Source of the DNA: Eutreptiella sp. 'Long Island Sound 2002'
Taxonomy: Eukaryota > Euglenozoa > Euglenophyceae > Eutreptiales > Eutreptiaceae
Reading direction: 5' to 3'
Length of the DNA: 64,000 nt
Assembly (NCBI GenBank): GCA_964036045.1
Contig: OZ038392.1
Coordinates: 17,505,612-17,569,611 of the forward strand
Both the position numbers and the translations under genes were made by a program. Shown piece by piece: positions 12,700 to 52,756 of this stretch; positions within the stretch are counted from its first letter, which is position 1; every line of letters starts with the position of its first letter. Below the pieces are notes generated by a model. The model was not told the DNA's origin, did no database searches, and was given only the letters and a program-made list of their open reading frames with translations.

Positions 12700-14661
12700 A
12701 GAGGGCGTGCAAGGCGCCTTTTTTTTTTTTTTTTCGGTAACATACTTGCCATACCTTGTGTAGGAAGAGGACGGGGCAGAGTCCAAAAAGGAGGAGGAAA
12801 AGGCGATGGGGGTGGAGTTGGCAGAAGCAGGTCCGGAGAAGGGGGAGGAGCAAGGAGGGCGGACGGAGGAGCAAGTGTGGCAGGATGTGCATCAAATACA
12901 GATCCAGGGGAGGGGAGAGAGGTGGTGGTACCAGGGACAAGAGGGTCCCGGGAGGGAGAGGAGGGAAGTGGGGGGGGGTACAGCACGAGACAGGAAACTA
13001 CGGGCAGGATGGGAAGGTGTGCTAGGAGTGCAGGTGCAGGAGATGGAGTATGTGGAGGTGCCAGAGGAACGGGGAAAGGTGAGTGGCAAAGGAGGCAGGC
13101 AGGGGGGGTGGACGTGTGGGTCTCTGGAGGGGGAGAGGCGGTGCTACAGCTGCAGCACAGGGATGATGTGGGCACCGGGTGGGGGGCAGAGAGAGCGGTC
13201 CAGATGCGAACGGACCGAGCGGTGTGGCTGGAGCCGGGATGGAGGGGAAGGTACAGAGTGGAGGCGGGGGGACAACGGTGGTGGGGTTGGCATACGACGT
13301 GGCAGGCGGACAAGGGGGAGGGGGTCCCGGTCAGGAAGGAGTGGGGAGGGGAGCTGCCAGGAGGAGGACAGGATGCGAGTGGGGTGCGAACACAATTCGC
13401 TAGGGCAGCATTGTCTCCAGCGCTCACGACGCAGGGACACCGAGGGCAGGAGTTGGTGTATACGTTCAGTGAGGAGATGACACTGAAGGCGGCGGACGCC
13501 ATCAAAATGGTACTGGACGAGGGGGCGGCATGCATGGCCAACCGCACGTACCATGTGCACCCCCACACCGGGGACACGTGGCATTACGCGTTCCCGGGGG
13601 ACGACGGCATGGAGAGTATAGCGTCACTGCCGGAGTGTGAGAGGCAAGGCACTGAGATATGGGCCCTCGCCAGAGCGGCGGAGGAATGGGTGCGGGAGAC
13701 GGGAGGAGAGGAGCACGGGAAGTGGGCAGTGGGGGCCATTCGGCATGCGAGGTATCGCAGGGGAGAATGGATGACGCGGGAGGACACAAAGGCGATATTC
13801 CCCGTGGCGACGAAGGGGCCAGCGGCGGCACAGTGGAGGGGACAGGCAGTCCACATCATCCTCCCGGATGACAGGGTGGGAGGCAGGGGGATGGTGGAAG
13901 TCGAGGTACGCCACGGGCAAGGGGCACGATACCAGTACGATGTGCTGGTGCCTAACGTGGTGGTCACCGCAGCAGCGGCGGCAGGTATGGAGGTCCGGAT
14001 TGGACTCAACCGGGAAGGACAGGCGGTACAGGTGTACACCATGGGACACTGGGAGGGACAGCCGGAAATCCAGTGGACGGCAGAGCCCACGTGGAGGGAG
14101 CCGCTGCATTCGGAGGGGAAGGTGGGAAGGGGAAGGCTCGATGGGAAGGACGCTGCGGAGCTTGACAGAGCAGAGAAAGAAAAGGAGAGACGCCAGAAGG
14201 AGGCAGCGGCGGAGGGGCTGGACATGCCGGGGGACGGAAGGGACAGAAAGGACATGCTACAGAAATGGGCACAGAGGCTGAGGGGGAAGGCGACAGCATG
14301 GCAGAATGTCTTGATAGAAAATGGAGAGGCGCAGCCGGGGCTGGAAGAACGCATCAAGGGATGTAGGGGTGAAGACTTACGGCAGACGGTGAGCAAGGCC
14401 AGGTACCACCTGAGGGCCAGAGCGGAGGCGGTGGAGGACAAGTGCAGGCCGGAATGCACGCGGGCCAGGTGCCTGTGCAGGCTGGATGGACCGCAGGAGC
14501 CCAAGGGAGGATACCATGGGATCAGAGTACGGCAGCCCAGGAGACAAGGGCCCATGTGGCTACAGATGGGGGAAGATGGTGGGGCGCCGCTGGTGTACTT
14601 CCACCAAGTCAAGCACATGTGGGTGGGATATGCGGATGGAGAAGTTCAACGCGGGTCATGA
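12700..14661 (+). CDS. Hypothetical protein, paralogue of the 1014-residue ORF; ORF preceding a gag region
   Basis: The frame opens after a stop at 12697 and closes with TGA at 14659-14661. No early ATG is in frame, so the true start or an upstream exon is unresolved. Convincing sequence begins around 13430. Three blocks match the 1014-residue protein in the same order: AADAIKMVL followed by an HPHTGDTWHYAF stretch; VHIILPDD through VPNVVVT (13849-13969); and a Cys-rich C-terminal segment with C-x4-C-x5-C-x-C (14438-14485). Between them lies a charged, probably helical stretch (14160-14300). It overlaps the next ORF, in another frame, by about 175 bases. Proximity to the gag and pol ORFs suggests it belongs to the same retroelement, but no LTR pair proves that. 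Function unknown. Confidence 0.5.
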   Translation, partial: RGRARRLFFFFFGNILAIPCVGRGRGRVQKGGGKGDGGGVGRSRSGEGGGARRADGGASVAGCASNTDPGEGREVVVPGTRGSREGEEGSGGGYSTRQETTGRMGRCARSAGAGDGVCGGARGTGKGEWQRRQAGGVDVWVSGGGEAVLQLQHRDDVGTGWGAERAVQMRTDRAVWLEPGWRGRYRVEAGGQRWWGWHTTWQADKGEGVPVRKEWGGELPGGGQDASGVRTQFARAALSPALTTQGHRGQELVYTFSEEMTLKAADAIKMVLDEGAACMANRTYHVHPHTGDTWHYAFPGDDGMESIASLPECERQGTEIWALARAAEEWVRETGGEEHGKWAVGAIRHARYRRGEWMTREDTKAIFPVATKGPAAAQWRGQAVHIILPDDRVGGRGMVEVEVRHGQGARYQYDVLVPNVVVTAAAAAGMEVRIGLNREGQAVQVYTMGHWEGQPEIQWTAEPTWREPLHSEGKVGRGRLDGKDAAELDRAEKEKERRQKEAAAEGLDMPGDGRDRKDMLQKWAQRLRGKATAWQNVLIENGEAQPGLEERIKGCRGEDLRQTVSKARYHLRARAEAVEDKCRPECTRARCLCRLDGPQEPKGGYHGIRVRQPRRQGPMWLQMGEDGGAPLVYFHQVKHMWVGYADGEVQRGS

Positions 14662-15955
14662 TGGTGATTCATCAGAGGAGAACTTCAAGCGGGACAATGG
14701 GATTCCATCAGAGGAGAACTTCAAGCGTGACAATGGGATTCCATCAGAGGAGAACTTCGAGCGGGACAGTGGAGACCCATCAGAGGAGACATTCGAAGCG
14801 GGCCATGGTGATCCATCCGTGGGGCAAGCGGGCCAAGCGGGGACTCAAGCGGGCCAAGCGGGGACACAAGCGGGAACTCAAGCGGGCCGAGCGGGGAGTC
14901 AGGAAGAAGAAGAACAAAGAAGGGCAGTGGCAGCGTACAGGGAAGCATGGAGTACGTGGCGACTGATCCAAGAGAGGAGGGAATGGGAAGAGCGGGAGCG
15001 GGCACAGCGACTGCTGAGCTGCGTGGAGACGGATGAGGAGACCGGGGGTGAAGAAGAGGAAGACCGCCATCACCAACAAGCGGGATATGGGGAAGAAGAA
15101 CAAGAAGTCCGCCACGGGTCATGGGGAAGACATGGTGAAGGTGAAGACCATGATGGACACGAATGGGGAGATCAAGAACGACGCCATGAACGACGATGGG
15201 GTGAAAGCCGTCCAAGCATGGAAGAAGAAGGGCAAGCGGGACAAGACGATGGCTGGGGAAGGAGACCAGCAGGGGAGGACATGTCCGGCTGGATCGAAGA
15301 CGCCGTGAGGCGCAGTGCTGTCGGCTATTTGGCAGCACTGACCAGCAAGTTGGAGGACCTGACAACCAACCAGCAGCTCCTGAGGGACATGGTGCTGCAG
15401 CGGGTGCATTATGCCGATGCACACGCCATGGAGCAGCAGCTGCGGGTCGACCTGCAGTCGTATCACGACGTCATCGTGGACTTGCAGGAGCGTCTGGGTG
15501 AGCACGAGGGCGAAATGGGCGCGCTCACCGATGTCTGCCACGGGCTGGAGTCCGAGACCGCCAAGTTCAGACTCGACAGGATGGACTTCGTGGACTGGCA
15601 GACGAAGGCGCAGGTCTCCAACGACGTGGATACCACCATCCGGGTGACAGACGACCACATGGACGAGATCCAGATCGACTGGGCGGGAGGCAATCCCTGC
15701 CCAGTCTACCCGGATGGAGGTGAGACCGATGAGGACTCAGACGAGGGGATGCCCCCTTTGGAGGACAGCAGTGACAATGAGTCCTCTGCCCCCAAGGTTC
15801 CACGGAACAAGGACATGTCCAAGAACACGAGCGGGAAGAAGAAGAAGATGGGCTGCATCATGGACGCCAGTGTGGGCCGGGGTGCCCACATGGCCACGCG
15901 GGGCCGAGTACACAACTGCCTGGAGCTGAGCCGAAAGAAGAAGCCAAGGTCCTGA
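14486..15955 (+). CDS. Gag-like coiled-coil protein, 5' part of retroelement 1
   Basis: Convincing sequence starts near 14640. First come tandem SEENFKRDNGIP-type repeats (14670-14800), then QAG/TQAG repeats (14820-14900). Charged Glu/Arg-rich stretches follow, then a helical region with heptad-like Leu/Val spacing (about 15285-15590), an acidic stretch (EDSDEG...EDSSDNE) and a basic KKKK cluster. The frame stops at 15953. The adjacent frame 1, open from 15724, carries the helical sequence that runs into the transposon junction at 16193, so a frameshift near 15.85-15.95 kb is likely. Read as the N-terminal structural part of the Ty3-like element, because the frame interrupted at 16193 resumes at 23057 and pol lies downstream. 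No zinc knuckle is seen. Confidence 0.5.
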   Translation: MDRRSPREDTMGSEYGSPGDKGPCGYRWGKMVGRRWCTSTKSSTCGWDMRMEKFNAGHDGDSSEENFKRDNGIPSEENFKRDNGIPSEENFERDSGDPSEETFEAGHGDPSVGQAGQAGTQAGQAGTQAGTQAGRAGSQEEEEQRRAVAAYREAWSTWRLIQERREWEERERAQRLLSCVETDEETGGEEEEDRHHQQAGYGEEEQEVRHGSWGRHGEGEDHDGHEWGDQERRHERRWGESRPSMEEEGQAGQDDGWGRRPAGEDMSGWIEDAVRRSAVGYLAALTSKLEDLTTNQQLLRDMVLQRVHYADAHAMEQQLRVDLQSYHDVIVDLQERLGEHEGEMGALTDVCHGLESETAKFRLDRMDFVDWQTKAQVSNDVDTTIRVTDDHMDEIQIDWAGGNPCPVYPDGGETDEDSDEGMPPLEDSSDNESSAPKVPRNKDMSKNTSGKKKKMGCIMDASVGRGAHMATRGRVHNCLELSRKKKPRS

Positions 15956-16193
15956 TCCCCAAGGCGGAGGACAACAAGGACGAGGTGAACAACGGCCAGC
16001 TACCAGCCGGAGGTTCCGGCCACACCCCAGACACCAGAAGACCCAGGCCTGCCGGCGAGCAGTGGGTGGAGGTGCGGGGTGCAGGAGCTGACCATGCGTG
16101 TTGCGACACTCAGTGGCTTCGGCTGCTGGGTGCCGCGGTGGATCAGCTCCAAAGGGTGGCCCGAGACGCCCAACAAGATCACCTGGCCGACCA
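15722..16193 (+). CDS. Gag-like reading-frame segment ending at the transposon insertion
   Basis: Frame 1 is open from 15724 to the insertion point, ending in a helical Gln/Leu/Ala-rich stretch. After the transposon and one copy of GACCA are discounted, the same frame continues without a stop in the ORF from 23057. This makes it one coding sequence split by the insertion and not two genes. Confidence 0.6.
16189..16193. repeat. Target site duplication GACCA, left copy
   Basis: GACCA directly precedes the left terminal inverted repeat. The matching copy is at 23052-23056. Confidence 0.85.
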
Positions 16194-16216
16194 CTTAGCC
16201 CACGCAAACTGCACCC
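16194..16216 (+). repeat. Left terminal inverted repeat (23 bp)
   Basis: Starts CTTAGCCCACGCAAAC and is an exact reverse complement of 23029-23051. Similarity beyond 23 bp is limited to a subterminal A/T block. Confidence 0.92.
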
Positions 16217-16849
16217 CCTTTTGGAAGAGAAGGACCTAAAAAATGACTCCCCAAAAAAGTATTTTTTTTGGACATTTGCAACACACATGACCCAGATACC
16301 ACCGAAAAAATACAATTTTACCCAATTTGCTGCTTTTTTCCACTTTTTGTTTATCAAAATAAACTATTATTTTGTCTGATTTGAGGGGTGTGTTTTACCA
16401 ATCTTGTCGTTTTTGTATTTCAAAAGCCAACTGGTGCGTGCCTGTTCGGGAGCTCATTTTCAAAATATGACATTCTGCGGGTCTCCAGTTGCACCTATGT
16501 TTGTCCTGCGAAAAAAATTGCTGTTTTGTGTACCTGAGTGCGCGAGGCCTCGCGCACTCAAGGTCATGGAAACAATTGTGTACAGAAGGCAACAAAAACA
16601 GGACACGAAGTGCACAACGTACAAACACTGAGATAAAAGCTCGGCAAAAATGTACAAGCCCTTAAGGGCATATAATTGCATTCGCGTCGAAGGCGAGTGC
16701 GCGAGCCCTCGCGCACTCATGACTGCAAAAAGAGGCGAAACACTTGGGTGAATCGTGACTTACTTCTTCTTCGGTCCAGCAACCTTAGCCAACCTGGAAC
16801 CCAGGCTTCTTGCCGCCAAACTTGTCCCACTTGGAGAGGCAACGGTACC
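16217..16849. other. Transposon 3' flank: A/T hairpin and two palindromes
   Basis: No complete gene. An A6/T8 near-palindrome at 16251-16271 mirrors one at the other end of the element. Palindromes lie at 16538-16557 (flanks extend it to 26 bp) and 16697-16716 (central-base variant). The frame of the upstream gene continues past its TGA for 32 codons to a Lys-rich end and a stop near 16753. Confidence 0.6.
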
Positions 16850-19713
16850 TCAAGACGGCTGGGCACCAGAACGCGAGGGCGGCTTGAACTCTGCACTAGC
16901 ACTGGCAGCAGTCTTCGCTTTCTTCTTCGGCTGTTCCTTACCAGATTCAGGGCTTGCATCGAAGTGAGCGGCGGATGCCCGCTTGCGCTTCTGCTGGGTC
17001 TCCAGTACTTGCTCCGGATCGTCTTCTTCTGACTCCTCGTCAGCATCGTCGTCGTCTGATTCCGCGGGCTTGTCCGATTCCTTCTCTTTCCCTTTTGCTT
17101 GCTTCTTGCTACTCGAGGGTGTTCCTTTTCCGGCTGCAGTACCCTGAGTTGGTACAACTTTGGCAGTCTTCTTCACCTTGGCTTGCATTGGCAAGGTAGG
17201 TGCAGGAGCACCAGGCTCAGTGTCGTCAGCGGGGGCCTCAGTCACGACATCTTCCTGGACGGCTTCTGCAGCATGCACCTGCTGGTGCCCTTCATGCCCT
17301 CGTTTGCTGTCCAAAACCCACAGTGGAATGCCACGCTGGAGCCACTCTTCTTGAGTATCCCAAGGTGCAGCTGTTGCTCCCTGCTCCGTCTGATCGGCCT
17401 CCAGCATGTACCGCATGACGATTGCATGCTGCAGAGCACCTCCAACGGCATTCCCTAGGTCCTTTTGCTTGATCGCTGACACAGCCAGAAACGCCACTTT
17501 AGTTCGGACGTCAGACATCGCAATCTTTGCGGCCATGGCAGGCGTGTCATCCACAACAACCACTGCATCAGGATGCCCACTGCACAAAAGGTATTTGTCC
17601 AGGTACCACAGCACGTGAATCAGAGGCATGAAAACCACCGAGGTTCTTCTCCTGCATCTCTTCGAAATGTCCAGCGGAATACGACACATAGTTCGGCAAC
17701 TGTAAATGTGATGAATATAGACGAAAAACGGAGGCAGCAGTGCGCGAGGCCTCGCGCACACAACGGCATCGTAACAGTCGAAAGAAGCAGATATACCTGC
17801 TTATCCCAGCGACTCGTTGTTCCGATCCACATACAGTGCTCGTCGAACTGATACGTACTGCTGGTCACGGGACCCGATAACCAAGAGTACACCGGCAACC
17901 GAACATGGTAGAATGGCACTGTGGTTGGATCCTTGTCCTTCTCCACACGCCATAGCCTCTGCATGTCGCGGCCAATACGGTGCACAACATCAGCCTCGCC
18001 ATAGAAAATGACGTCTTTCCCCAGCATCATCACATCGAACAGCCACCTGGGAACAAATCCTGCAGAGTCATATTCAATGAAAAGGTCAGCGTTGATGATC
18101 CACAACGGGTACTGCAGATCCCGGAAACGGCCTGGCGGTGTCTCTCCAATATCCTCAATACGGCAGGCTGTCAAAGCGAATTTGCTCGCTTGCTCGTCCT
18201 GCTTGGAGACATTGATCACATCGCCATTACTCAGCTGTGTCTGTGACGGTGCCGATGATGGTGCCTCAGTCTTCCTTTGCAGTTGTTTCCGCACGGCCAA
18301 CGTCTGTGGTAATGGAGGTGCGCCCTTGTCCCCAGTGCGCCACAAAGGTGCACTGAGCAGCGTCTTCCATTTTGGCCACGGCGACCGAAACTTCGTACTT
18401 TTTGCGTCCACCCAATAACCCCAATTTCCCAGCCCAATTTTCAGTTGCGGTGTGCCCAGTGCTGCGACTTCTGCTCGGATCTTCGCATCGGCAGCTGTAC
18501 GGATATGAAAAAGGTGGTGAAGTGCGCGAGCCCTCGCGCACTGCAGCTGCGACACTGACGCATACCTGCGGTCTGGTTGACATACTGCTTATTGTCCGGA
18601 TTGTCAAGATGGAAAATAACCCATTGTTCCGTAATCTGCACGTCAATGCAGTTCTGGGTGGTCTTTAAGGTCGAGTCCTTCAGGTTCATGTGCGCACAGA
18701 CTTTCTGCAATAGGCTCGGTAGATGCAGCCCCTCCAGCTTCTTGAAGGCATTCCTTGTAACTTCGTCTTTCCTGCTCTTACTCTCGAGGTTCCTCATACC
18801 AGTAACCGCCTCACGGCCACAGTAATACGCCAGGGAGAAGATGTCCCTCCAATTCTTGAATGTCGAGTCCTGCGGGGTAAAACAGTGTCATGGAGTGCGC
18901 GAGGCCTCGCGCACTGTAACCGTGCGATACACGAATACATACTGTATGTCCTGCTTCCTCCAAAGTCTCGGGTGCAAGAAACGCAGAGTTGACGGCAGCC
19001 TGGACAACAGCAATCTTGAACCTCTCAAAATCTTGTGGCTCTTTTTCCCGCTTCTGGTCCTCAATGTACAACAACATGTTGTCCAGCGCCTCGGACAGCG
19101 GAATCCACGTCACAGACTGGCTGCCAGCTTGTTGCAATCCTGCAACCTTGGCACGGATCCTCCAAGGCGTTTCGTACTTCAGAATGTCAACGTAGCAAAA
19201 CTCCTGCCAATCCTCTAATTCTTTGCCTTCTGCGAGACGCAGTTGCTGAATCTTTCTGCATGTTTCTGTGCCATGTTGACCATTCAGAACGTAAAGGGAG
19301 CCATCTGCAAAGCAAATCATGTACCGAAGCAAAGAGAAGAAACGTCTTCGATCGAAAGCGAAGCGAGTCATACCACTATCCTCCCACGCCGTTACGCGCA
19401 ACGGTCCAGCTGGTGGCAGTGCTTGGTATCCGGTCACTTTTCTGGCAACGTCGTCATAGTTGATGGATCGGATCTGTCCGCGCTCCTTGGTCTTGTCAAT
19501 TCTCAAATCAGCAATCTTTACCTTCACGGCTTTACCATTCTCCTGCCGCAGCCACTGTGCCACTTCGACTGTGAGCTTCATCTCCGGTATTGGCTTCTTC
19601 TCACCCTTCTTCTTGCGTCCTTTCTTCGGCGTGTCCCCTTGGTCGGTCCCTGGTGACGACTCCATGGCCTCTGCGTCTGGTGCTGAACGTTCTGGCGACC
19701 CTGGTTCACTCAT
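16850..19713 (-). CDS. Transposon gene A: ~839-residue protein, possible ParB/sulfiredoxin-like domain, five inferred exons
   Basis: ATG at 19713. Inferred exons: 19713-18943, 18869-18566, 18494-17797, 17699-17683 and 17579-16850. They sum to 2520 bases, in frame. All four donors read GTAT and all acceptors CAG. The N-terminus is charged (KKGRKKKGEKK, residues 30-40). Residues ~60-160 carry KIADLRID...RSINYDDVARKVTGY, then LYVLNGQHG (GQH at 145-147). This arrangement recalls the ParB/sulfiredoxin-like fold with its G-x-H signature; I have not verified it. The middle is globular, with no motif I can name. The C-terminal ~120 residues have Lys-rich, Asp/Glu-rich (DDDDADEESEEDD) and KRKR/KKKAK clusters, suggesting a nuclear protein. 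The fourth exon (17 bases) and intron 4 are the weakest parts; without them the frame stops at 17568. An in-frame TGA at 16852-16850 is followed by an open frame ending AGPKKK. Likely a DNA-binding partner of the transposase. Confidence 0.65.
17580..17682 (-). other. Inferred intron 4 of gene A (103 bp, no palindrome)
   Basis: GTATTC donor at 17682 and TTTTGTGCAG acceptor ending at 17580. It is needed to join intron 3's acceptor frame to the long C-terminal frame. It leaves a 17-base exon upstream, so it is tentative. Confidence 0.4.
17700..17796 (-). other. Inferred intron 3 of gene A (97 bp) containing a palindrome
   Basis: GTATAT donor at 17796 and TTTACAG acceptor ending at 17700. The 20-bp palindrome lies at 17740-17759. 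Splicing follows ...WDKQ in phase 0. Confidence 0.65.
18495..18565 (-). other. Inferred intron 2 of gene A (71 bp) containing a palindrome
   Basis: GTATGC donor at 18565 and CCGTACAG acceptor ending at 18495. The palindrome (central-base variant) is at 18522-18541. Splicing joins two frames into an uninterrupted protein-like sequence. Confidence 0.75.
18870..18942 (-). other. Inferred intron 1 of gene A (73 bp) containing a palindrome
   Basis: GTATGT donor at 18942 and CCCCGCAG acceptor ending at 18870. The palindrome is at 18895-18914. Reading through the intron leads to a stop shortly afterwards, whereas splicing continues in frame for more than 100 codons. Confidence 0.75.
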
Positions 19714-19962
19714 GATGCCAAAAAATACCTGAAAAGGGCAAATGGCATGACATGAAACACGGTCATTTGAACTCTGAAATCAGTCGAAACGGTATTTTGC
19801 AGGTGGTTTTCGCAAATCTGTTCCACAACCGTCTTTGTTGTGACTTAATCCACGGCACTTAGCGAACTACTCAGTGCGCGAGGCCTCGCGCACTCACATC
19901 GCATTACATACCTGTTTTTCATAACGTTTAGTGCGCGAGGCCTCGCGCACTGCGGGTGTCAG
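19714..19962 (-). other. Spacer between genes B and A with a possible 5'-UTR intron and two palindromes
   Basis: A CAG|GTATGT donor (intron from 19911) and a CCTTTTCAG acceptor (ending 19729) could form a 183-bp leader intron ending 15 bases before the ATG of gene A. The palindrome at 19874 would lie inside it and the one at 19931 just upstream. The GTAT donor matches the coding introns. Tentative. Confidence 0.45.
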
Positions 19963-21960
19963 TTACCGCAAGCGTTGCCGCACGTTGCGTGTTGCTGCTT
20001 CCTGTCTGTCGGCATCCATATCTGTTCTCCGTCCCACAACAGCATCAAGTTTCCGTTTCAGTTGGTTGGTGGGATTTGTTTTCTGGTCAATGAGGGCATC
20101 TAGTACGCTGTGACCAAGTAGCCGGTAGTGGTCGTAACCGAGGGGTGGTGTAGGTGAGGGTGGAAATCTCGGTAACCTCCGCGGCCAAGAAGGTGCAACG
20201 GTGCTTACTCTGTCCGACTCCCATTCCACATAGGCCATGCAAATCCGGTCTGTCGCCAAAAATCTGGTCAGTCGTTGTCGCATCCTGTGTACCAGGTTCT
20301 TGGGAACGTTTTGCACCCCAACGCGTTTTCCACCAGGACCAACCTTTAGTAACAAGTAATGGTTTTCCACCTCCTCAACAGTAACAGAACCCGTGTTTCT
20401 CGCCTTGTCCCGCACCAGCTTGCTCAACATCCCTTCTCCAAACTCCTCTGAGGTCGCCTGACCGGGCAGGTCCTGGTGCCACTTGCTGTTGTACAACAAT
20501 GTGCACATGATTGTGCGTTCGTACTTCAGTACGGTGTCACACGGTCCTCCACGCAGCCTCCGCAACAGACACAAACTCAACTGCAACACCTCCTGAGCTC
20601 GTGTCCCTGTAGCGTTGTTTTCCCCCGACCAGTTGCACTCCCGTACCAGGTGACCCAAGTACAACAACAACGGGCACCATTCCGACAACAAATGCAAGAC
20701 TGCGTTTGCCACTGCTGCCCTGTTGGCATGCGTAGTGTCACGACCACTGATCGCGGTTGCAGCTTGTGCCTTGCGCCGATACGGGCGTAGTATTCGGGGT
20801 GTGGCAAGCATCAGCGCAGCAATAGTTTTTTCCATAACTATCAGTTTGGGGTATGATAGTATGGTGGAACCAGGTCGTAGCAGACATTTCCGTAGGTAGG
20901 TTAGAATAGGCCAGAACACCCGAAAAGTATGAGTAACAACGAACTTGTAGGCATGCCAGACACCGTAAACTACAGGCACGTAACGCAGGTATGCACGCAT
21001 GTTCCATCGTTGGTTCTTGGCACCGTACAACAACTTTAGTACCCTGTAGTGTATGTTTTCGTCAACCAACAGCGGTAGAACTCTGTTTGTCTGTTGTGCT
21101 ACGTCCCTTGCAAAGTGTAACAAGTTTAACAGACCAACACCACAAGTTACCTTCTCTTTTGACAGGGCAAACGGGCGCCACACCGGTGCCTGCACAGTCC
21201 TTGCATCCCTCCTCACATCCAACGGCGCTCTCACGTTTCCAGTGTCTGGTGCACACCCATCTGCATACCCCATGTCACGCAATGTCTGGTGGATTCTCCG
21301 TTCACGCTGTTGCAGAGCCCTTGCGACTGTCGTTATCCGTGCTGCCAGGTCCTCAATGGCTGGATGTCCTGCCCAATACGTGGGCCTCTGTTTCAGTTGA
21401 AGTACTGCCATTGCAGTACAGTTTTGCGACCGGTCACTTTCGTCTGGGTGTGTCGTGTATTGTGCCCGGTACAAGTTGTCTATCCACAGCACGCAACACG
21501 ACGAGAGCACCAGTGACCACGTTGCTTTAAGTGCTGCTGCTGCCTGTTCGTCCACTGTATCTGCGGCAGCGTCTGCTTGCCCGAGTCGTACTTTTGTTCG
21601 TCTTTCTGTTTGCGTTAGGTACCCTGTTGTGTTTCCCGGTTTTTTCCTGTTTGGTACTGCCCGTTGACGCATCAACAGGTACAGGTTCCAGCCCTCCTGT
21701 CGCAAAATGCGCACCCAGCGCTTGTCCTCCTGTCTTTTAGCTGCTGGTAAACTGTGGCGCGTTCTTTTGTTGAACCTGAGTCGCTGTGCAAATGTTAACA
21801 CCAGTTGCGCCGCCAGGTCGTTCCGTTTCAGTCCTTTCCACAGGTCATCTGCTGTTTGGTATGCTGGTTCTGCCGCGCATGCCTCTCGTAGTGCTGCTGC
21901 TCCTTTGCTTACTTCTGCAATCATTCGATGCGTTACGGATTTTCTGGCTCGAATTGGCAT
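19963..21960 (-). CDS. Transposon gene B: 665-residue candidate transposase of unrecognised family
   Basis: Uninterrupted frame from ATG at 21960 to TAA at 19963, with no introns. Basic throughout; the N-terminal ~130 residues are Arg/Lys-rich (RFNKRTRHS, RRTKVR), suggesting DNA binding. Conserved-looking blocks: CCVLWIDNLYR (155-165) followed by NCTAMAVLQL; LPLLVDENIHYRVLKLLYG (295-313); and YVPVVYGVWHAYK (327-339), then aromatic/helical sequence. A D-N block, then a V-D-E block, then P-V-x-x-G-x-W-H recalls from memory the order in fungal and algal DUF6589-type proteins, which are linked to mobile DNA. I could not verify this. No zinc knuckle, RNase H DDE spacing or tyrosine recombinase box can be asserted. 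It is the only large intact protein with a plausible catalytic role between the TIRs, so it is the best transposase candidate. Confidence 0.7.
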   Translation of the reverse strand: MPIRARKSVTHRMIAEVSKGAAALREACAAEPAYQTADDLWKGLKRNDLAAQLVLTFAQRLRFNKRTRHSLPAAKRQEDKRWVRILRQEGWNLYLLMRQRAVPNRKKPGNTTGYLTQTERRTKVRLGQADAAADTVDEQAAAALKATWSLVLSSCCVLWIDNLYRAQYTTHPDESDRSQNCTAMAVLQLKQRPTYWAGHPAIEDLAARITTVARALQQRERRIHQTLRDMGYADGCAPDTGNVRAPLDVRRDARTVQAPVWRPFALSKEKVTCGVGLLNLLHFARDVAQQTNRVLPLLVDENIHYRVLKLLYGAKNQRWNMRAYLRYVPVVYGVWHAYKFVVTHTFRVFWPILTYLRKCLLRPGSTILSYPKLIVMEKTIAALMLATPRILRPYRRKAQAATAISGRDTTHANRAAVANAVLHLLSEWCPLLLYLGHLVRECNWSGENNATGTRAQEVLQLSLCLLRRLRGGPCDTVLKYERTIMCTLLYNSKWHQDLPGQATSEEFGEGMLSKLVRDKARNTGSVTVEEVENHYLLLKVGPGGKRVGVQNVPKNLVHRMRQRLTRFLATDRICMAYVEWESDRVSTVAPSWPRRLPRFPPSPTPPLGYDHYRLLGHSVLDALIDQKTNPTNQLKRKLDAVVGRRTDMDADRQEAATRNVRQRLR

Positions 21961-23028
21961 TTTGCGTCTTTCTCTGTGAAATTAAATTTGCGCACATATG
22001 TTGGTTATCGTTTCGCACAGCGACCTTTAAAAAAATGTCCTTGACAACATCTGGCCTTTTCCTGTCGTCATTTCTGGTGCGCGTGCTGTCGCCGCAAATT
22101 GGATTTGGTGTCTGCGTGCGCTCCGTTCCCAGTAACCGAAAACCGTTTTCGCAACCACAATTTCCTGTTCTGTGTCCGTCTTTAAACCCAGTTGGAAAAA
22201 AAAACCATGTCTATCGGGCAGCGAAGGCTACGCCGCTATTAAAACCGGACACGTCTGCCATCGAGTGGCTGTTGGAAAAAAGCAAATCATTCCCCTGATC
22301 CCCTGAAAAATATGACGAAGGTTACCGATGTATAATCGACTGTCACAGGTGGTAGCCGTGAAGGGGAATGTAAATACCGGTGTAGCCTGACCTGCCTGCT
22401 TTTTCATTTTCTTCCGTCGTTTAAGTGCGCGAGGCCTCGCGCACTGATTGTTTCCGTGGAACAATGTTCTATACCGTGTTATATCTGATCAACATGGTGT
22501 CTACACACACATACACCGGAAAAATCAAACGTGTTTGTCCGTCTCGTACTGTACCTGCAATTGTACGCGTCACATCCATTCTGAAAATTCAATACATAAC
22601 GTGACCTGAGTGCGCGAGGCCTCGCGCACTCAGGTTGCCTAAATTTGTATTTTGTTTTCACTTTACAGTACATGTGTTTTCCCTAACATGGGAAGTCCGA
22701 CAGTCATACACTTCCAATGCTCCTTGGTCAACACAATCCTACTTTTAATACCGTGTGGGAGCTGCGTTTTTCCGCAAACGCCAGTCCTTACGGGTTGTTA
22801 CGTTTCGTGACAAGCTCTGCTTTCGATATCTTGAGTGCGCGAGGCCTCGCGCACTCAGAACGCCAGAGAAAAGTAAAAAACGTCACATTGAGGAACACGG
22901 AGTTGCACAACACTAAAAAAGCAATTTAGTTCACTACGTCTAAAATCACGTTCATGAAACATCCAAAAAAATAGTTTTTTTGCCCTGTTGCGAACCGGTC
23001 CTTTTTTGCGCGTTCGGCGCGCAAAACA
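21961..23028 (-). other. Upstream region of gene B with three palindromes; no assured exon
   Basis: About 1 kb between gene B and the right TIR. Palindromes lie at 22425, 22610 and 22835. On the minus strand several CAG acceptor-like sites follow them, for example ATTTTCAG ending near 22583 and TTTTTCAG near 22310. A 26-base ATG-containing segment at about 22582-22557 is flanked by acceptor- and donor-like sites. This may be a leader with small exons or a third gene too short to model. Confidence 0.4.
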
Positions 23029-23051
23029 GGGTGCAGTTTGCGTGGGCTAAG
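23029..23051 (-). repeat. Right terminal inverted repeat (23 bp)
   Basis: Exact reverse complement of 16194-16216. A GC-rich hairpin (GCGCG-TTCG-GCGCGC type) lies immediately inside it at about 23007-23022. Confidence 0.92.
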
Positions 23052-23056
23052 GACCA
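23052..23056. repeat. Target site duplication GACCA, right copy
   Basis: Directly follows the right TIR and matches 16189-16193. Confidence 0.85.
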
Positions 23057-24134
23057 GCTGGCCGTGGCTGAGATGGGGCATGACCTCTCTGTCATGGGGA
23101 CGGAGGGGAAAAGTCTCGGGCAGACGTTGGAGAAGAACTTCGAGGACCTCGACGCCAAGATGTTGGAGTCTGGCATCTGGAGGGTGCCAGGGGAGGTCCG
23201 AGAGGTCCAACGAGCCCTGGAGTCCGCGAAGAAGGCCATCAACGACGTGCAGGGGGCGCTGGGTGGGCATACAGCAGCCCACAACCAGCTGACCGAGAAG
23301 TTCAAGGGCCAGGAGACCAACCTCCGAAGGGTCAACGACGAGGCCAAGCAGGAGTTTGCTGTGCTGCGTGACTCTGTGCAGGCAGCACGGAGTCAGACCC
23401 AGGAGCTCTATGAGGCCCTGGACGCCAAGTTGGAGAACAACGGCAGCCTTCAGAAGCAAGCGTGCCAGCAACGGGCCAATGGGATGGAGACCGAGCTGGC
23501 AGTCTTGAGGGAGCGTTGCCGCCAACTGGAGGGTCGCCCCCTGGGCACGGAGGAGGCAGGCCCCAGTTTGGGGGACCTGACCACGGTAGGAGTGGGGCTG
23601 CAGGCCGTCGAGGGCAAGATGGCCGGGGCGTGTATGAAGGTGGAGCTGGCGGATGCAGTGAAGGGATTAAGGAAGAAGATCGGGGAAGTGGAGACGGGCA
23701 GCAAGGGCATGGAGGCCCGAGTGCAGGGGCAGTGGGCGACGGCGCAACAGCGCATAGCCCAGGTGGAGACGGCCGCCACGGCGTGGGATGGGTGCCAAGT
23801 GCACCTTCAACAGTTGGAAGCCCGCCTGGCGCAACTGGAAGACGTCTCCATCACGGCGACCTCACAGCAGCTAGTGGATCGGCTGCAGGGGTACGACCAG
23901 CGGCTCCAGGCCTTGGAGGCCGGGCCCCAAGCACCGGCTGCACCGGAGGATGAGCTGCTGCAGGAGATGGAGTCCATGCAGAAGGGGATCGCGGACGCCG
24001 CCCTCCAAGGACAGAATGCCCAACACTCCAGCGAGCAGTGCAGTACTGCGATCGGGGAGTGCAGGGTACGACTCCAGTGGATACTGGACAACTACATTAG
24101 CAGGAAACCCGGAGGGCGGCAATGGATTGGGTGA
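23057..24134 (+). CDS. Gag-like coiled-coil ORF, continuation after the transposon
   Basis: The frame actually opens inside the transposon, but its retroelement part starts at the TSD. It encodes a long, mostly helical protein rich in Glu, Gln, Ala and Leu with repeated heptad-like spacing. It has no Cys knuckle. It ends at TGA 24132-24134, and the next ORF's ATG (24122) overlaps it by 13 bases in another frame. The overlap suggests coupled expression or a frameshift between the structural segments. Confidence 0.65.
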
Positions 24135-26080
24135 ACGAGCACCTGGCCAACCTGCAGCGAGAGTGGGACGCCTGGTCGCCGACGGATGCCGACGAGTCAG
24201 GAGGGGGAGGGGCAGGGCATACACGGGGTGTGCCCTGTGAAGACCCTCGATCGGAGTTCGGCGTGAGGTCGGACGATGAAAACGCGGCGGAAGCGGATGT
24301 GGAAGCCGACCCCACCAGTCCCACCAGGCCCAGAAGGGAGAAGAAAGGGAAAGGAAGAAGGGCAAGAAGAAGTGACGGAGGGTGAAGCGGAGGGTCAAGC
24401 GGAGGGTCAAGAGGCGGTTCAAGCAGTGGGAAGAAGCCAAGGAGTGGCCCAAGCGGGAGAAGAGCGCCGAGCACAAACAGTTCAAGCGGGAATAAGAGCA
24501 CGACGAGCACCACAACAAGACGAAGAAAGGGAAGTGGTGGACCACCGTCGAGCTCGCCAAGCCCATCGCCTCCGCCCAGTCGAGCCACCAGATCGCCTGC
24601 CTCGAGTTCGAGGACGTCGACATGCCCTTCCAGTCAGTGGAATCGACTGACTGAGAAGAGGATTCGGCACAAGTTGCCGATTGAGACCAGGCGGCGAGAA
24701 GACGACTGGGAGCTCTACAAGAAAGAGCACAAGGAGGAGCCCACGCTAAGAGCCGGGGCCTTCCAGCACGACCTGACCTTGGCCACACTGGAGAAAGGCC
24801 CCGAGCCGCCCAAGCTGGCAAGGTGGGAACGTCAAGGCTGGGGAACGTACAAGGCAGCGTGGACTGCGTACACGGTAGACATGCATGCCATGCACTACCC
24901 CCACCTGGACCGTATCATGCAGCTGGGGATACCGGCGGGGAAGCTGCAGGAGTGCAGGAGACTCCTGAGGTACAGGAAGTACCCTGACGGTTCCAGGGGG
25001 CCCAGCAAACCCACAGCAGCTGAGCTGTGGGACTTGATGTATGGGCTATGGGAGAAGAAAGAAGTGGGGGTATCGCAAGTGGACTGGAGAAAGGTGAGGC
25101 CGGCGCAAGGGAAAGATTCGGTGACAAGAGCCGACTGGGAGGAGTACATCCGTAACCTCCAGCGGGAACCGGGGAGGAGTCCCTTGGTCAGGGAGTCTGA
25201 TATAATCCCCCACCTGCAGACCTACATCCCGGAGTGGATGCAGCGAAAGGTCTTGACCAGTCTGGCCAAATACGAGACCCACTTTAAGGCGGTCAACCTG
25301 ACGGGGATCGCCACAAAGTACCCGTCACTACGACGATTGAGGGAGGGGCTGAGGAAGTATGACATCGACGCTGAGGTGAACCAGTACGATGCCCACTCAG
25401 CCTGGCTTACCATGCCGGCCACTGACATGGAGTCCTATGCCGCTGTGAAGCGGTGGGACGGGAAGCCGGCGGGGAACGATCTGGAACTGCACGTCCGGGA
25501 CGCGCAGGTCTTTCCCCCCTGGACCAAGGTCTCAGGATGGATCCTGGAGCACCTCCGGGTCTCGGACACCGAAAGGTTGATCAAAGAAGGGGACAAGGCG
25601 GAGAAGAAGACGGTGGCGGCAATGAAGGGAAAGAATACCGACCAGAAGGGGTCGAAGAAGAAGAGTTCGTCACAACAGCCGCAAGATAAGAAAAAGACGG
25701 GAAAGAAGGACGAAAAGAGCTGCAAGAAAGAGGAGAAAGCGAAGCAAGCAGGCGAGGAAGCCGGAGGGAACAAAGGAGTTATCGGGTCTGAAGTGTATGC
25801 GGTGAAGGGTAAAGGCAAGAAAGGCAAGGGAGGTCCGAAGGACGGCCAGTACAACACGTACGCTGCCAAGGGGCAAGGAAAGGGATCCACCGGAGGTCCC
25901 GCCCAATGGCAGGGCAGCCCCAACCAGCAAACAGCTGGAAAAGGACCAGCGGGGCCGTATCAGCCTACCTGGTACACCTCTGGAAAGGGTGGCCAGGATG
26001 GACGTGGTCGAGGAGGTCAGCAGTCCGCAGCCTGGGGTCAGCCACAACGGGGACCCTTCTATGGCAAGGGACAACACTGA
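24122..26080 (+). CDS. Gag (capsid-like) ORF of retroelement 1, with an in-frame TGA
   Basis: ATG at 24122, then an acidic stretch and a Lys/Arg-rich stretch (RREKKGKGRRARR). TGA at 24383 interrupts the frame. The same frame then continues with a Ser/Gly-rich linker. From about 24640 there is a globular, Trp/Tyr-rich domain running to ~25560, with the spacing of a retroelement capsid (for example LRRLREGLRKYDIDAEVNQYDAHSAW). A basic tail rich in Lys, Gly and Gln (25600-26060) resembles a nucleocapsid without a CCHC knuckle. It ends in TGA at 26078-26080, and pol follows in the same frame. Assigned as gag by position and composition, not by a signature motif. Confidence 0.55.
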
Positions 26081-26218
26081 AGAGGCCAAGGCGACCGGTG
26101 GGCCCCGGGAGCCTGGCTGAATGAAGAAGGCCCTATCCCGACGGGGAACTGGGTTCAGCCAAGCCACCCCGGCCTGGAGTGCAAGCGGGAAGAATGGGTA
26201 AAGCGGGAGCGGCCGGAT

Positions 26219-28369
26219 GTGACGAAAGAACGGATGGAGCAGGAGTTGCAAGAAGCGGCGAAGCGGGAAGAGCGGGTGAAGCGGGATATAATCCCAAACT
26301 CCGTCCTCAGGGTCAGGGGGATTGACCCCCGCCTGCAGATGGTCCTGGAAGGGGTACTGGTCTTCACCGATGGGAGATCAGTGACCGCCAAAGTGCTGGC
26401 GGACCCCGGATCGGAAAGCAGCCTGATCCGGATGGGTTGGGCTGCAGAAGAACTCATGGTGGACGCGAGTAAGCCGAAGGAGTTTTTCATGGCGGACGAC
26501 ATGTCCAAGCTGCCGGGCGGCAAAAGGGTGGCCCCCTGCAAGCTCAAGCTGGCTGGGTACTGCAAGCAAACAGCTGCAGCCCACAACGCAGCGCTGCCCC
26601 TACGGCCGTATGAGGCCAGGATCGGTTATGATCTGATCCTTGGGCATGAGGACATGTGGGCCCTGGGAGTGGGCCATAACGTGGGGATGGAGACCTTGGA
26701 GCTGGAGAACGGCCACGACGCGATGTGGCTCTATGATTACGAGGACAGGCTGAAGGACATGCCGACTCTCGAGATCGAGCCCATCACGGGGGATCAAGTC
26801 CGGATCCCACAGTGTTTCCTGGACAAGGGACACGCCGCCTGTCCACCAAGGGTGGCGGCGCAACGAGAACGTGGTCTTCTCCGAGAGAAGAAGCGGGCGC
26901 CGCCGAAGGCAAAGGTGGGAAAAGTAAGCGGGGTGGTGCTCACGCCATATGAGCCCACTCCGCCGAAGTGGGTCAGCAAGAGCGTGCATCGGCAGCGGCA
27001 GCAGCACTCGGACCGGTTCTACAAGAACACCGAGTGGGGGATCGTACCTGAGATGTACGACCTCGCCTGGAGGACGGCAGGATGGGGTGAGCCCGATTGG
27101 GACCCATACCTGCGTTCCCCTTCGCTGCGCAAGACCGTTGGGTTCCTCCCGATGGGAGAAGACGCACACTCCCACTACTGGGGTACATGGAAGCTGCTGT
27201 GGATATGCGGGCCGTATGACAAGATGTCCACGACCGTGCAGCAGCTGACGACGGATAAGGTCAAGGCCTTGGTCGTCGCCCCAGAGTGGACCAACCAGCC
27301 ATGGTGGGACACCCTCAACCAGATCGCCGTGAAGGCGTGGGTGTTCCCCGATTCCAGGTCAGGATTACACCTGCACCAGGACGGGGACGGCAACAGACTC
27401 CCTCAGAGGGAGTGGAGGACTGTGCTGTTCGCCGTGGACACCACCGGACTGGACGACCCAGATCGACCGGAGGTGCCCACACTGGCTGGAGTACATCGCA
27501 TCAGCAGCCGGGAGGCCGTGCGGTGGAACCGGTGCTGCACCCTTGAGATCGGATGGGATGAAGAAGTGGTGGCGGAAGTGTCGGGGAAGATTCGGGAAGA
27601 AGAAAAGCGGGAAGAAGACAAGACGGAGGCCGTTCGTGGACAAGCGGGTTATACAAGCGGGCGAGTACAAGCGGGTCAGGAAAGCGGGCGGGTCCACACA
27701 GTGGTGTTCAGCGACGAAGGGAAGTTGAAGACCGGGCCCAAGGTCACGGACTGCAAGGAGCGATTGAACAGGGAGTTCAGCTCCGACGTGCTGAGTGGGA
27801 AATTGTTCCTACCAGCCGACCCCCACATTCCAGTGAGGGGAGGGGAGCACGTAGGCTTGGCCAAGATACAGGATCTGGCCAACGCCGTAGCCAAGCGCCA
27901 AAAAGGATTCCGTCTCGTGGGACAACGAGAGGCCATACTCAAGGAGTTGGTCGAGGACTTCCTGGCGCAGGGGATCATCGAGCCCTGTGGCGATGGTCCC
28001 TGGCTAAACAATGTCTTCCCGGTCGCGAAGAAAAGCGGGAAATTCCGGATGGTCGGGGACTTCCGGTACTTGAACACCCAGACGGAGCCCGACAACCACC
28101 CAATCCCAAAAATTGAGGAGATGATCGAACGCTATGGTGGAGACCAGATCTTCACGATCATTGACCTCAAGCAGGGATTCCACCACGTCCCGTTGGACAG
28201 GAAGAGCCGGATGAAAACGGCCTTCAAGGTGGATGGGCAGACATACCGCTATCGGGTCATGCCCATGGGTATCAAGCAGGCCCCAGCCACATTCCAACGA
28301 ATGATGGACTGGGTGCTAGGGGACATGCCCTTCGCCACCTGCTACATAGATGACATCCTGATTGGATAA
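26219..28369 (+). CDS. Pol of retroelement 1, part 1: protease and N-terminal reverse transcriptase
   Basis: Same frame as gag and open from 26081; the GTG at 26219 is only a nominal start. The aspartic protease motif is ADPGSESSLIR (residues 61-71), with LIL-GH (YDLILGHED) about 75 residues later. A long connector follows. The reverse transcriptase then begins near residue 580: QGIIEPCGDGPWLNN, VGDFRYLN, ITIIDLKQGFHHVPL-type palm, MPMGIKQAPATFQRMM and the catalytic YIDD at the C-terminal end. TAA at 28367-28369 comes four residues after YIDD and cuts the RT; the frame resumes at once. Enzymatic roles are inferred from family motifs. Confidence 0.88.
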   Translation: MTKERMEQELQEAAKREERVKRDIIPNSVLRVRGIDPRLQMVLEGVLVFTDGRSVTAKVLADPGSESSLIRMGWAAEELMVDASKPKEFFMADDMSKLPGGKRVAPCKLKLAGYCKQTAAAHNAALPLRPYEARIGYDLILGHEDMWALGVGHNVGMETLELENGHDAMWLYDYEDRLKDMPTLEIEPITGDQVRIPQCFLDKGHAACPPRVAAQRERGLLREKKRAPPKAKVGKVSGVVLTPYEPTPPKWVSKSVHRQRQQHSDRFYKNTEWGIVPEMYDLAWRTAGWGEPDWDPYLRSPSLRKTVGFLPMGEDAHSHYWGTWKLLWICGPYDKMSTTVQQLTTDKVKALVVAPEWTNQPWWDTLNQIAVKAWVFPDSRSGLHLHQDGDGNRLPQREWRTVLFAVDTTGLDDPDRPEVPTLAGVHRISSREAVRWNRCCTLEIGWDEEVVAEVSGKIREEEKREEDKTEAVRGQAGYTSGRVQAGQESGRVHTVVFSDEGKLKTGPKVTDCKERLNREFSSDVLSGKLFLPADPHIPVRGGEHVGLAKIQDLANAVAKRQKGFRLVGQREAILKELVEDFLAQGIIEPCGDGPWLNNVFPVAKKSGKFRMVGDFRYLNTQTEPDNHPIPKIEEMIERYGGDQIFTIIDLKQGFHHVPLDRKSRMKTAFKVDGQTYRYRVMPMGIKQAPATFQRMMDWVLGDMPFATCYIDDILIG

Positions 28370-32640: not shown

Positions 32641-32919
32641 AGCTACACCCTCCCCTACGATCCTGGACTCCCAGGAGTGTATTCCTGAGGAGACCCCTAT
32701 GGGTGTCCTATCGGGTAGTGCTGGTAGGACGTTTTTCCCCTACCCTAGGGTTAGGGTAGAGGGACTAAGACCCTCACTACAGGCCATGTACCGCACCCCG
32801 CACCCCATAGTCGAAACTCCACACGCCAGATATTATGCCACATCGAAAAGTATACACAGGTTAGGTTACCCTTCCACATCCCACATTCCACATCCCACCG
32901 GCCACAGCCGTCATCCGTG

Positions 32920-33690
32920 TCCTGATGTAGGCCCGCGTCTCTTGCACTACAACCCCGAGTCCTGCTGTACGACCCCGTGTCCTGTTGTATGCCCCCATGT
33001 CCTGTTGTACGCCCCCGTGTCCTACTTTTACCCCCCTTGTCCTGCCGTACGACCCCGTGTTCTACTGTACGCCCCGTGTCCCGTGTAAGCCCCCGTGTCA
33101 TGTTGTACGCCCCCGTGTCCTGCTGTACACGCCCCTGTCCTGTTGTACGCCCCCGTGTCCTGCTTTTACCCCCCTTGTCCTACAGTACGACGCCGTGTTC
33201 TGCTGCACGACCTCGTGTGCGGCTGTGGGCATCCGTGTTCTGCTGTACGCCCCCGTGTCCTGCTGTACGCCACCTTGCTTTGCCGTACGCCCCCGTGTAT
33301 TGCTGTACGCCCCCGTCCTGCTGTACGCCCGCGTGTCGTGTTGTACGCCCCCATGTTCTGCTGTACGACCCGGTATTCTACTGCCCACCCCCGTGTCCTG
33401 TTGCACGCCCCCGTGTCCTATTGTACGTCCCCGTGTCCTGCCGTACGCCCCCCTGTCCTGCTATACGCCCCCGTGTCATGATGTACGCCCCTGTGTCCTG
33501 CTGCACGCCCCGGTGTTCTGTTCAACGCCCACGTGTGCTACTGTACGCCTCCGTTTCGTGCTGTACGCCCCCGTGTTCTGTTATACGCCCCCGTGTTCCG
33601 ATGTACGCCCCTGTGTTTCTGCTGTACGCCCCCGTGTTTTGCTTCACGCCCATGTGTCCTCCTGTAGACCCCCGTGTCCTGCTCTGCGCC
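32920..33690. repeat. 20-bp minisatellite, block 1
   Basis: Degenerate head-to-tail units of the type GTCCTGCTGTACGCCCCCGT. A 20-base unit without stops leaves all three forward frames open, giving spurious Cys/Pro/Val-rich ORFs of up to about 250 codons. These are not genes. Confidence 0.92.
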
Positions 33691-34085
33691 CCAACCCGCG
33701 CACATGCGAGGGGAGGGTAATTCACAAAGGATGAGGCCACATGTTTATAGTAGAGTATCGAGCCTACCTTCACCCGGCACCGCCACTTCTGTCCCACATG
33801 GTCAGGTCCTCATCACTAACAACACATCCTTTTTCACTCCAACTGCACTGCTGTCAATGATCATGATGCTCGAAGTCCCAACCCTTATCCCAAAACCAAC
33901 GACAATCCTGACTGTCATCTTAACCTTATCCCCAACCCACTGACACCACATGTCAAACTTCACATATCACAGGCCCTATCCCGCAACTCGCACGCCATAG
34001 TCTAAACTCCACTTGCCAGATATCATGCCGAATCCAAGAGTATACACACCGCATCCCAGATCCCACATCCTACATTCCACCGCCC
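33691..34085. other. Unique spacer in the minisatellite, with a duplicated block leader
   Basis: No gene. 33985-34100 resembles 32790-32925: both contain CGCCATAGTC/CCCATAGTC, a CCAGATAT run, TATACACA, and end in CCACAGCCGTCATC(C/T)GTGTCCTG. A block comprising this leader plus minisatellite was therefore duplicated. Confidence 0.65.
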
Positions 34086-51300: not shown

Positions 51301-51562
51301 TCAGATCTACCTCCCTTTGCCAGGTGGTGATCTTCTGTTCGAGGTCCTCCTTCAGTTGGGATAGGTCTCCCATACGTCCTTGCTTCAGTGGCCACGAGCT
51401 GCGGGTAGGCTTAGCGTAGCATAGCTTTTTCGCCACCAACCTCCTCTTGGAGTCCACGTACTCCCTTAGCCTGGATCGGGGATCCAGCTCCTCATCCAAG
51501 GTTTCTTCCACCTTCATGGCGAGTAGAGGTTTCAGTGGGGCGACGTACTCGGCGTTCTCCAC
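48394..51562 (-). CDS. Pol of retroelement 2: reverse transcriptase, RNase H, integrase (interrupted)
   Basis: Same frame as the protease ORF, starting right after its TAA. RT motifs: VVDYGEVNKKT, MDKRSGFWQVDLAP, MPFGVASAPALFQELM and catalytic AHIDDVCLG (about 386-394). The last has His where Ty3 RTs usually have Tyr or Phe before x-D-D. RNase H runs from VNDASNVGGGG through NYSTYEQELLA. Integrase has HESSGH...CPCRSC zinc binding, then D in YVDYTEM (~854), D in INSDED (~912) and E in PLCERQIRVLKEN (~952). The last ten codons before the stop at 48362 belong to the inserted repeat. The true C-terminus is at 43686-44210. Active in its time, now broken. Confidence 0.9.
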
Positions 51563-52729: not shown

Positions 52730-52756
52730 GTCAAGGGCCCCACCGGAGCGTCCCCG

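Follow-up and report, generated by a model that had tools for sequence, protein, structure and literature searches.

The 64,000-nucleotide stretch of DNA analysed here (hereafter the window) is part of contig C15 in the 2.28-Gb genome of Eutreptiella sp. 'Long Island Sound 2002', and it carries at 16194..23051 one 6,858-bp copy of a DNA transposon, which we refer to as family 1. We consider it probable that this element belongs to a lineage of two-gene DNA transposons with terminal inverted repeats (TIRs) and a 5-bp target-site duplication (TSD), in which dispersed palindromes are putative sites for an element-encoded dimeric protein needed in cis. Directly observed were the borders, the TSD length, the multi-copy state, the CTTAG ends, and the occurrence of the two genes together in three families.

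Both TIRs of the window copy are perfect over 23 bp. The left TIR (CTTAGCCCACGCAAACTGCACCC, plus strand) at 16194..16216 and its reverse complement (minus strand) at 23029..23051 match exactly, and the same sequence was found at both ends in 34/34 copies, which were chosen by the TIR. The TSD, GACCA, can be read at 16189..16193 and again at 23052..23056. When the flanks were joined over a single GACCA, a 496-codon frame was obtained without interruption. The host of the insertion is a retroelement (14486-16193 and 23052-30922), with reverse transcriptase, RNase H and integrase domains downstream of the 496-codon frame. An earlier interpretation made from the letters of the window (hereafter the sequence-only reading) had described the TIR, the flanking GACCA and the restored frame, and each was recovered at the same positions. 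It had also called this an exact empty-site argument, a claim that held for the reading frame but not for the genome: a 200-nt query of the joined flanks matched four pieces in the 2.28-Gb genome, with each flank found once at the window site and once on contig C17, and none of them was an unoccupied site. Since the genome gave no such site, the argument is carried by the reading frame alone. On contig C17 (22692386-22699447) both window flanks recur with 100% identity and with 6,857 bp between them; judged from these flanks, the locus seems to duplicate the window site with an element in place, either as a segmental copy or through assembly.

The TIR was then used for collection of other copies. 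At two or fewer mismatches, 1,230 forward and 1,211 reverse matches were found in the genome, far above the control with reversed letters (1 and 0). The 100 matches listed included 33 inward-facing pairs and 34 single TIRs; 17 pairs were 6.4-7.0 kb in size and 12 were 1.1-1.25 kb. All 33 pairs together with the window copy formed the sample of 34 copies, with the 34 single TIRs left out. A TSD of exactly 5 bp, diverse in sequence, was detected in 32 of these 34 copies, the exceptions being L011, in which 4/5 bases match, and L017, which has a 7-bp match instead. The same inverted termini, multiple copies and a TSD of fixed length but varied sequence, by which a DNA transposon is generally recognised, are thus all present. 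The exact borders and 5-bp TSD proposed by the sequence-only reading agree with these copies and with three elements of other families described below (L054, L063 and L064); as to copies with different termini or TSD length, the TIR-chosen sample yielded the single 7-bp case and did not refute the proposal. As a separate observation, a weak and symmetric target preference was noted, with C directly before the TSD in 23/34 copies and G directly after it in 19/34 (L017 treated as a 5-bp case).

The two genes of the window copy are both on the minus strand. Gene B (19963..21960) is intronless and encodes 665 amino acids, a probable DDE transposase as judged from its open frame, alignment and predicted structure. 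Gene A (16760..19713, the low end being mapped from the stop of the open copy L012) has four predicted introns of 69, 73, 71 and 97 nt, and encodes 881 residues in L012 once spliced. Its last exon is out of frame in the window copy and open in other copies, so that the word 'intact', used for this element in the sequence-only reading, applies to its structure but not to gene A. Introns 2 (18870..18942), 3 (18495..18565) and 4 (17700..17796), of 73, 71 and 97 nt, are bounded by GT-AG and each contains a palindrome. Intron 1 (19305..19373, 69 nt) was predicted by comparison with two further families, and is in frame, stop-free and palindrome-free; the 904-codon open frame of gene A still contains it, and the spliced protein is 881 amino acids. 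Its position is common to all three families; a palindrome lies within it in families 2 and 3, whereas the family-1 intron lacks one.

Among the 19 long copies, gene B (665 codons) is open in 10, gene A is open at full length in 9, and both are open in 7; L009 and L024, with gene A open over 903 and 902 codons, were kept out of the full-length count. The mean pairwise identity of these copies is 94.7%, and some are practically identical. Because of the open genes and the near-identical copies, this high-copy element has probably been active recently. Between the window copy and L012, the ratio of nonsynonymous to synonymous substitution rates (dN/dS) was 0.355 for gene B and 0.51 for gene A (last exon of gene A excluded), and for the seven copies whose identity to the window copy is below 96%, dN/dS ranged from 0.12 to 0.65. 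Both genes are under purifying selection in family 1. CpG changes were also tabulated among the copies, and gave no clear methylation signal.

Two further families were found in the same genome, with gene B about 46% (family 2) and about 32% (family 3) identical to that of family 1. For family 2, at least 67 gene B matches were detected in the genome (scored from 8,591 first-look candidates); for family 3, with 31.7% identity over 657 residues, at least 94 matches were detected (93 of 7,932 candidates scored). We examined a single complete element per family. The family-2 element (L054:281-6673) is 6,393 bp long, with perfect 23-bp TIRs (CTTAGGCGGCTCAAGTTGCATGG) and the TSD TCACA. The family-3 element (L063:101-6619) is 6,519 bp long, with the TIR CTTAGGCGGCCCT(T/A)TACGCAC, the ends differing at one of the first 21 bases, and the TSD AATCA. 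The 5-bp TSD length is read from one copy in family 3 (L063) and two in family 2 (L054 and L064). Both families follow the two-gene plan, with gene B near one end and a homologue of gene A downstream. The interiors of the TIRs differ among the families, and the CTTAG ends are common to all three; CTTAG was present at the gene B end in 12/12 family-2 loci and in 7/8 family-3 loci, the remaining one (L055) having CTCAG.

We next describe the palindromes. The window copy contains ten copies of the palindrome GTGCGCGAGGCCTCGCGCAC, eight exact and two with one central mismatch, and no other copy was found elsewhere within the 64-kb window. Two are located 3' of gene A (16538..16557, and 16697..16716 with the central mismatch), three in the introns of gene A (17740..17759 in intron 4, 18522..18541 with the central mismatch in intron 3, and 18895..18914 in intron 2), two in the spacer between genes A and B (19874..19893 and 19931..19950), and three 5' of gene B (22425..22444, 22610..22629 and 22835..22854). 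In L012 none of the ten palindromes overlaps coding sequence, although non-coding sequence makes up only 32% of the element, and three lie in introns 2-4. In family 2, ten sites with the same 16-bp core and other outer letters (mostly TT..AA) were identified, again with 0/10 in coding sequence and three in introns. Beyond these ten palindrome sites, L012 and L054 have no 14-mer in common. The family-3 element L063 shares no 14-mer with families 1 and 2, and its family has a palindrome of its own (TTTGGGCACTGCAGTGCCCAAA), which is exact in 7/8 family-3 loci. Nine sites of this palindrome were detected in L063 at a loose threshold, as against none in 20 shuffles; the exact 14-bp core is present in 2/9 and none is exact across 22 bp, and one site is inside the coding sequence of gene B and one in intron 1. 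Each complete element examined therefore carries 9-10 palindromic sites.

When seven diverged family-1 copies were compared with L012, differences were found at 38 of 1,385 palindrome positions, 1,386 of 13,835 other non-coding positions, and 2,448 of 32,031 coding positions, a comparison for which P values are nominal owing to the shared ancestry of the copies. Among near-identical family-1 copies this deficit of changes in the palindromes was not seen. In the genome, the 18-bp core that families 1 and 2 have in common was counted 10,135 times, and its reversed control not once. Of 50 core sites listed by position, family-1 pairs contain 22, another 4 adjoin single family-1 TIRs, 5 surround a gene B of family 2, and 19 are elsewhere. 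In the viral collection the core was found in one stretch (L065). The dinucleotide at the centre varies among GC, CC and GG across families 1 and 2 and their derivatives, and the half-sites GCGCGAG and CTCGCGC stay intact. This pattern of fixed half-sites and a variable centre would be anticipated if a dimeric protein binds.

Gene-less derivatives also keep the palindromes. Eleven gene-less family-1 elements of 1.2 kb were identified (L029-L035 and L038-L041), ten of which are 95.5-97.7% identical to L029. The 14-mers that these elements have in common with the window copy and L012 come from the ends and the surroundings of the palindromes, plus one A/T word in 8/11; for this reason their origin as internal deletions of the parent was rejected. 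Each contains three palindromes, except for L038 with two. Four other short copies (L027, L028, L036 and L037) are ordinary internal deletions. A gene-less derivative of family 2, L064 (1,709 bp, TSD ACTTA), was reached through a palindrome cluster outside the assigned loci, and its 14-mers in common with family 2 are restricted to the ends and four palindromes. These comparisons suggest that the palindromes act like a further code in cis, one that tracks the family and not the coding content. Subterminal A/T blocks, which the sequence-only reading had put forward as possible transposase sites, do exist, but proved weak, with only that one A/T word common to 8/11 of the short derivatives. The palindromes, absent from that reading, are the stronger repeated feature.

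The distance of the outermost palindromes from the ends is nearly constant in family 1. In long and short copies of family 1 their centres are located 198-210 and 350-356 bp from the two ends, with exceptions at one end only in L009, L036, L037 and L038. At the gene B end of the window copy the centre is 207 bp from the terminus, and 33/34 copies fall within 198-210 bp at this end. The corresponding distances are 206 and 358 bp in L054, 216 and 386 bp in L064, and 228 and 214 bp in L063.

Three readings of the palindromes were weighed. That they act as RNA or DNA hairpins (in splicing, as a cruciform, or as a small-RNA precursor), or are a functionless hitch-hiking repeat, would agree with their nature as spacerless inverted repeats, three of them within predicted introns of gene A. 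We regard this as very improbable, since the exact letters, beyond mere complementarity, are kept between families that have no other 14-mer in common, since the palindromes persist in gene-less elements, and since the changes of the centre preserve both half-sites. A second possibility is that the transposase, gene B, itself binds the palindromes as internal or subterminal sites, gene A serving some other role. In P elements, internal repeats act as transposition enhancers, a precedent that speaks for gene B as the reader, as do the outermost sites, whose distances from the ends are similar between families 1 and 2 and in the majority of gene-less elements. However, the greater part of the ten sites is located in introns and spacers well away from the termini, and families 2 and 3 have a common terminal CTTAGGCGGC but entirely different palindromes, indicating that the specificities for the end and for the palindrome are not locked together. 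The latter argument is a weak one, because gene B, too, is most similar between families 1 and 2. On balance we hold it unlikely that gene B reads the palindromes.

The reading that we favour assigns the palindromes to an element-encoded protein that binds DNA as a dimer and is most likely the product of gene A. Gene B would be a DDE transposase of RNase H fold, interrupted by an all-helical insertion (the P/hAT-like plan), and would recognise the TIRs, cut the target with a 5-bp stagger and join the element, as in the ordinary model. The dimeric protein would bind the palindromes, which would be required in cis for mobility. The outermost ones, which in family 1 lie at about 207 and 354 bp from the two termini, would probably help to assemble or expose the transposon ends, and the interior ones would let the protein coat the element, plausibly shielding it from silencing. 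Because introns and spacers accommodate these interior sites, coding sequence would pay no cost for such an array.

DDE/D transposases have an RNase H-like core with conserved D, D and E residues. In gene B a candidate triad of D161, D300 and E509 was recognised, together with a GVWH motif at 333-336. In an alignment of 17 rows, D161 is nearly invariant, D300 is invariant, and E509 is present in all rows long enough to include that position (13 of 17). The structures nearest to the predicted fold of gene B are the P element and Hermes, with modest scores at low model confidence, and Foldseek with the same model returned nothing at E <= 0.001. The model and the triad together indicate that gene B is probably a DDE transposase. 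Among 17 gene B relatives, none showed a match to a Pfam transposase family at E values up to 10; five gene B proteins matched no NCBIfam transposase family, and a gene B profile gave zero matches to PDB sequences at E <= 10. A single gene B sequence gave four PDB matches, which were weak and unrelated (best E 0.028) and were dropped. Relatives of gene B were not found in viral contigs.

The TSD of hAT elements is 8 bp, and variants of 5 to 7 bp exist; that of the P element is 8 bp. The element resembles Hermes (hAT) and the P element in its predicted RNase H-like core with an all-helical insertion, its short TIRs and its fixed-length TSD, and differs from them in the lack of a sequence match, in the TSD of 5 bp instead of the usual 8, in the second conserved gene, and in the palindrome array. 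As modelled, it works like a DNA transposon of P/hAT type with an accessory system. Alternatively, the element could have diverged strongly within an established superfamily whose transposase has an all-helical insertion (hAT, P or KDZ), and would then not form a separate lineage; we think this unlikely, and it is compatible with the palindrome part of our explanation. Hermes and the P element as nearest structures argue for it, as do the GVWH motif and the naming of hAT5, with a 5-bp TSD reported for some hAT elements, in PMC12730594. The profile and database searches listed above, all without a credible match, argue against it, as does the C/DxxH motif, of which the C/D position is an invariant G in gene B. 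The 8-bp TSD given for Zisupton in PMC12730594 also speaks against a place in KDZ (Kyakuja, Dileera, Zisupton). With that group the element has in common an accessory gene within a DNA transposon, which in fungal KDZ is TET/JBP according to the same paper. It differs in its 5-bp TSD (8 bp in Zisupton), in a gene A with no match to the TET/JBP family, and in a gene B with no Pfam transposase match.

Other groups were compared feature by feature. In 17 gene B relatives no Pfam match was obtained to hAT or MULE (MuDR/VANDAL) domains, or to the rve core of Ginger, IS3EU and IS481EU, which the neighbouring retroelement does yield; these non-detections are weak evidence. No Pfam match to the THAP domain of the P element was obtained in gene B relatives or gene A, and the TSD is 5 bp in all three families, as against 8 bp in the P element. 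Most members of the CMCT clade have CA..TG ends (as stated in PMC12730594); here the ends are CTTAG..CTAAG, and an invariant cysteine pair is absent from the 17-row alignment of gene B. For P, for Zisupton-type KDZ and for the CMCT clade, one or more of the features compared speak against membership. As far as testable, the lineage appears to match no known transposon family in Pfam or NCBIfam, with Repbase and Dfam outside the comparison. To this extent the statement of the sequence-only reading that the element is of no recognised superfamily stands, qualified by a predicted fold nearest to P element and hAT. No earlier description was found in the literature searched, including PMC10045372; this search likewise left Repbase/Dfam and most subscription journals outside its scope.

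The product of gene A gave fewer clues. The N-terminal domain keeps GQxR, PP and GxH motifs in the three-family alignment. No credible Pfam family, and no ParB match in Pfam, was obtained for gene A. Only two matches were returned when a three-family profile was searched against the complete set of PDB sequences with a cut-off of E <= 10. One, to a ribosomal protein (E 0.034), was not credible; the second, to sulfiredoxin, was aligned at a GGAH motif with E 1.8 and is not significant. The parS sites bound by ParB are palindromic. Gene A resembles the ParB-parS system in the G-x-H motif of its N-domain and in the weak sulfiredoxin profile match, and is unlike it in the lack of a Pfam ParB match and of the GxxR arginine, which is replaced in the sequences GQHG, GQHS and GAHI of families 1, 2 and 3. 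GxxR is the phosphate-binding box of ParB, and sulfiredoxin is the commonest eukaryotic representative of the ParB/Srx fold (both from PMC12704722); ParB-parS sites are 16 bp long (PMC8494293). A ParB/sulfiredoxin fold in gene A, which would be unusual, if true, because sulfiredoxin is the main eukaryotic form of the fold, is a lead and not a result. In its most extended and rather improbable form, this lead would make gene A a nucleotide-controlled clamp of ParB/Srx fold that loads at about ten palindromes, spreads, and protects the element from silencing or joins its ends, palindrome and protein co-evolving as a private address of each family within a superfamily-level lineage.

A protein search with gene A found at least 62 proteins, 47-100% identical among the matches listed. 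Distant relatives may exist besides these, because the family-2 homologue is itself absent from the matches. Separately, a JGI metagenome contig (5,581 bases; protein P0127) encodes a 100% identical match to part of gene A, so that the host or a close relative may live in the environmental sample.

The nearest precedent that we found for such an array is the anti-silencing protein VANC of VANDAL elements in Arabidopsis, which suggests by analogy a link to escape from silencing. VANC binds short non-coding motifs and causes silencing marks to be lost (PMC5735166; PMC10398659). Compared by motifs, the two systems are alike in having a short family-specific motif in introns, intergenic and terminal non-coding parts, the sites here being putative. 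They differ in that the VANC motifs are non-palindromic words of 8-9 bases in tandem repeats of the same orientation (as described in PMC5735166), whereas here palindromes of about 20 bp are dispersed. If our reading is correct, a superfamily-level branch, high-copy and apparently recently active, would be added to the eukaryotic DNA transposons. Two families in which a single palindrome is the only common word, together with gene-less derivatives in which ends and palindromes are retained, offer a natural experiment, by which the needs of a transposon in cis beyond its ends, the reading of a code by a second protein, and the use of introns as docking space become testable.

Outside the element, a second retroelement is located on the minus strand at 48362-54631, with protease, reverse transcriptase, RNase H and integrase domains. 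Tandem arrays were observed at 1-882, 32915-35971, 36229-38657 and 56871-57320; they comprise a 209-bp unit, an array of the approximately 20-bp CCGTGTCCTGCTGTACGCCC in three blocks, and 13-bp arrays of the CAATCACCACAAG type at two places.

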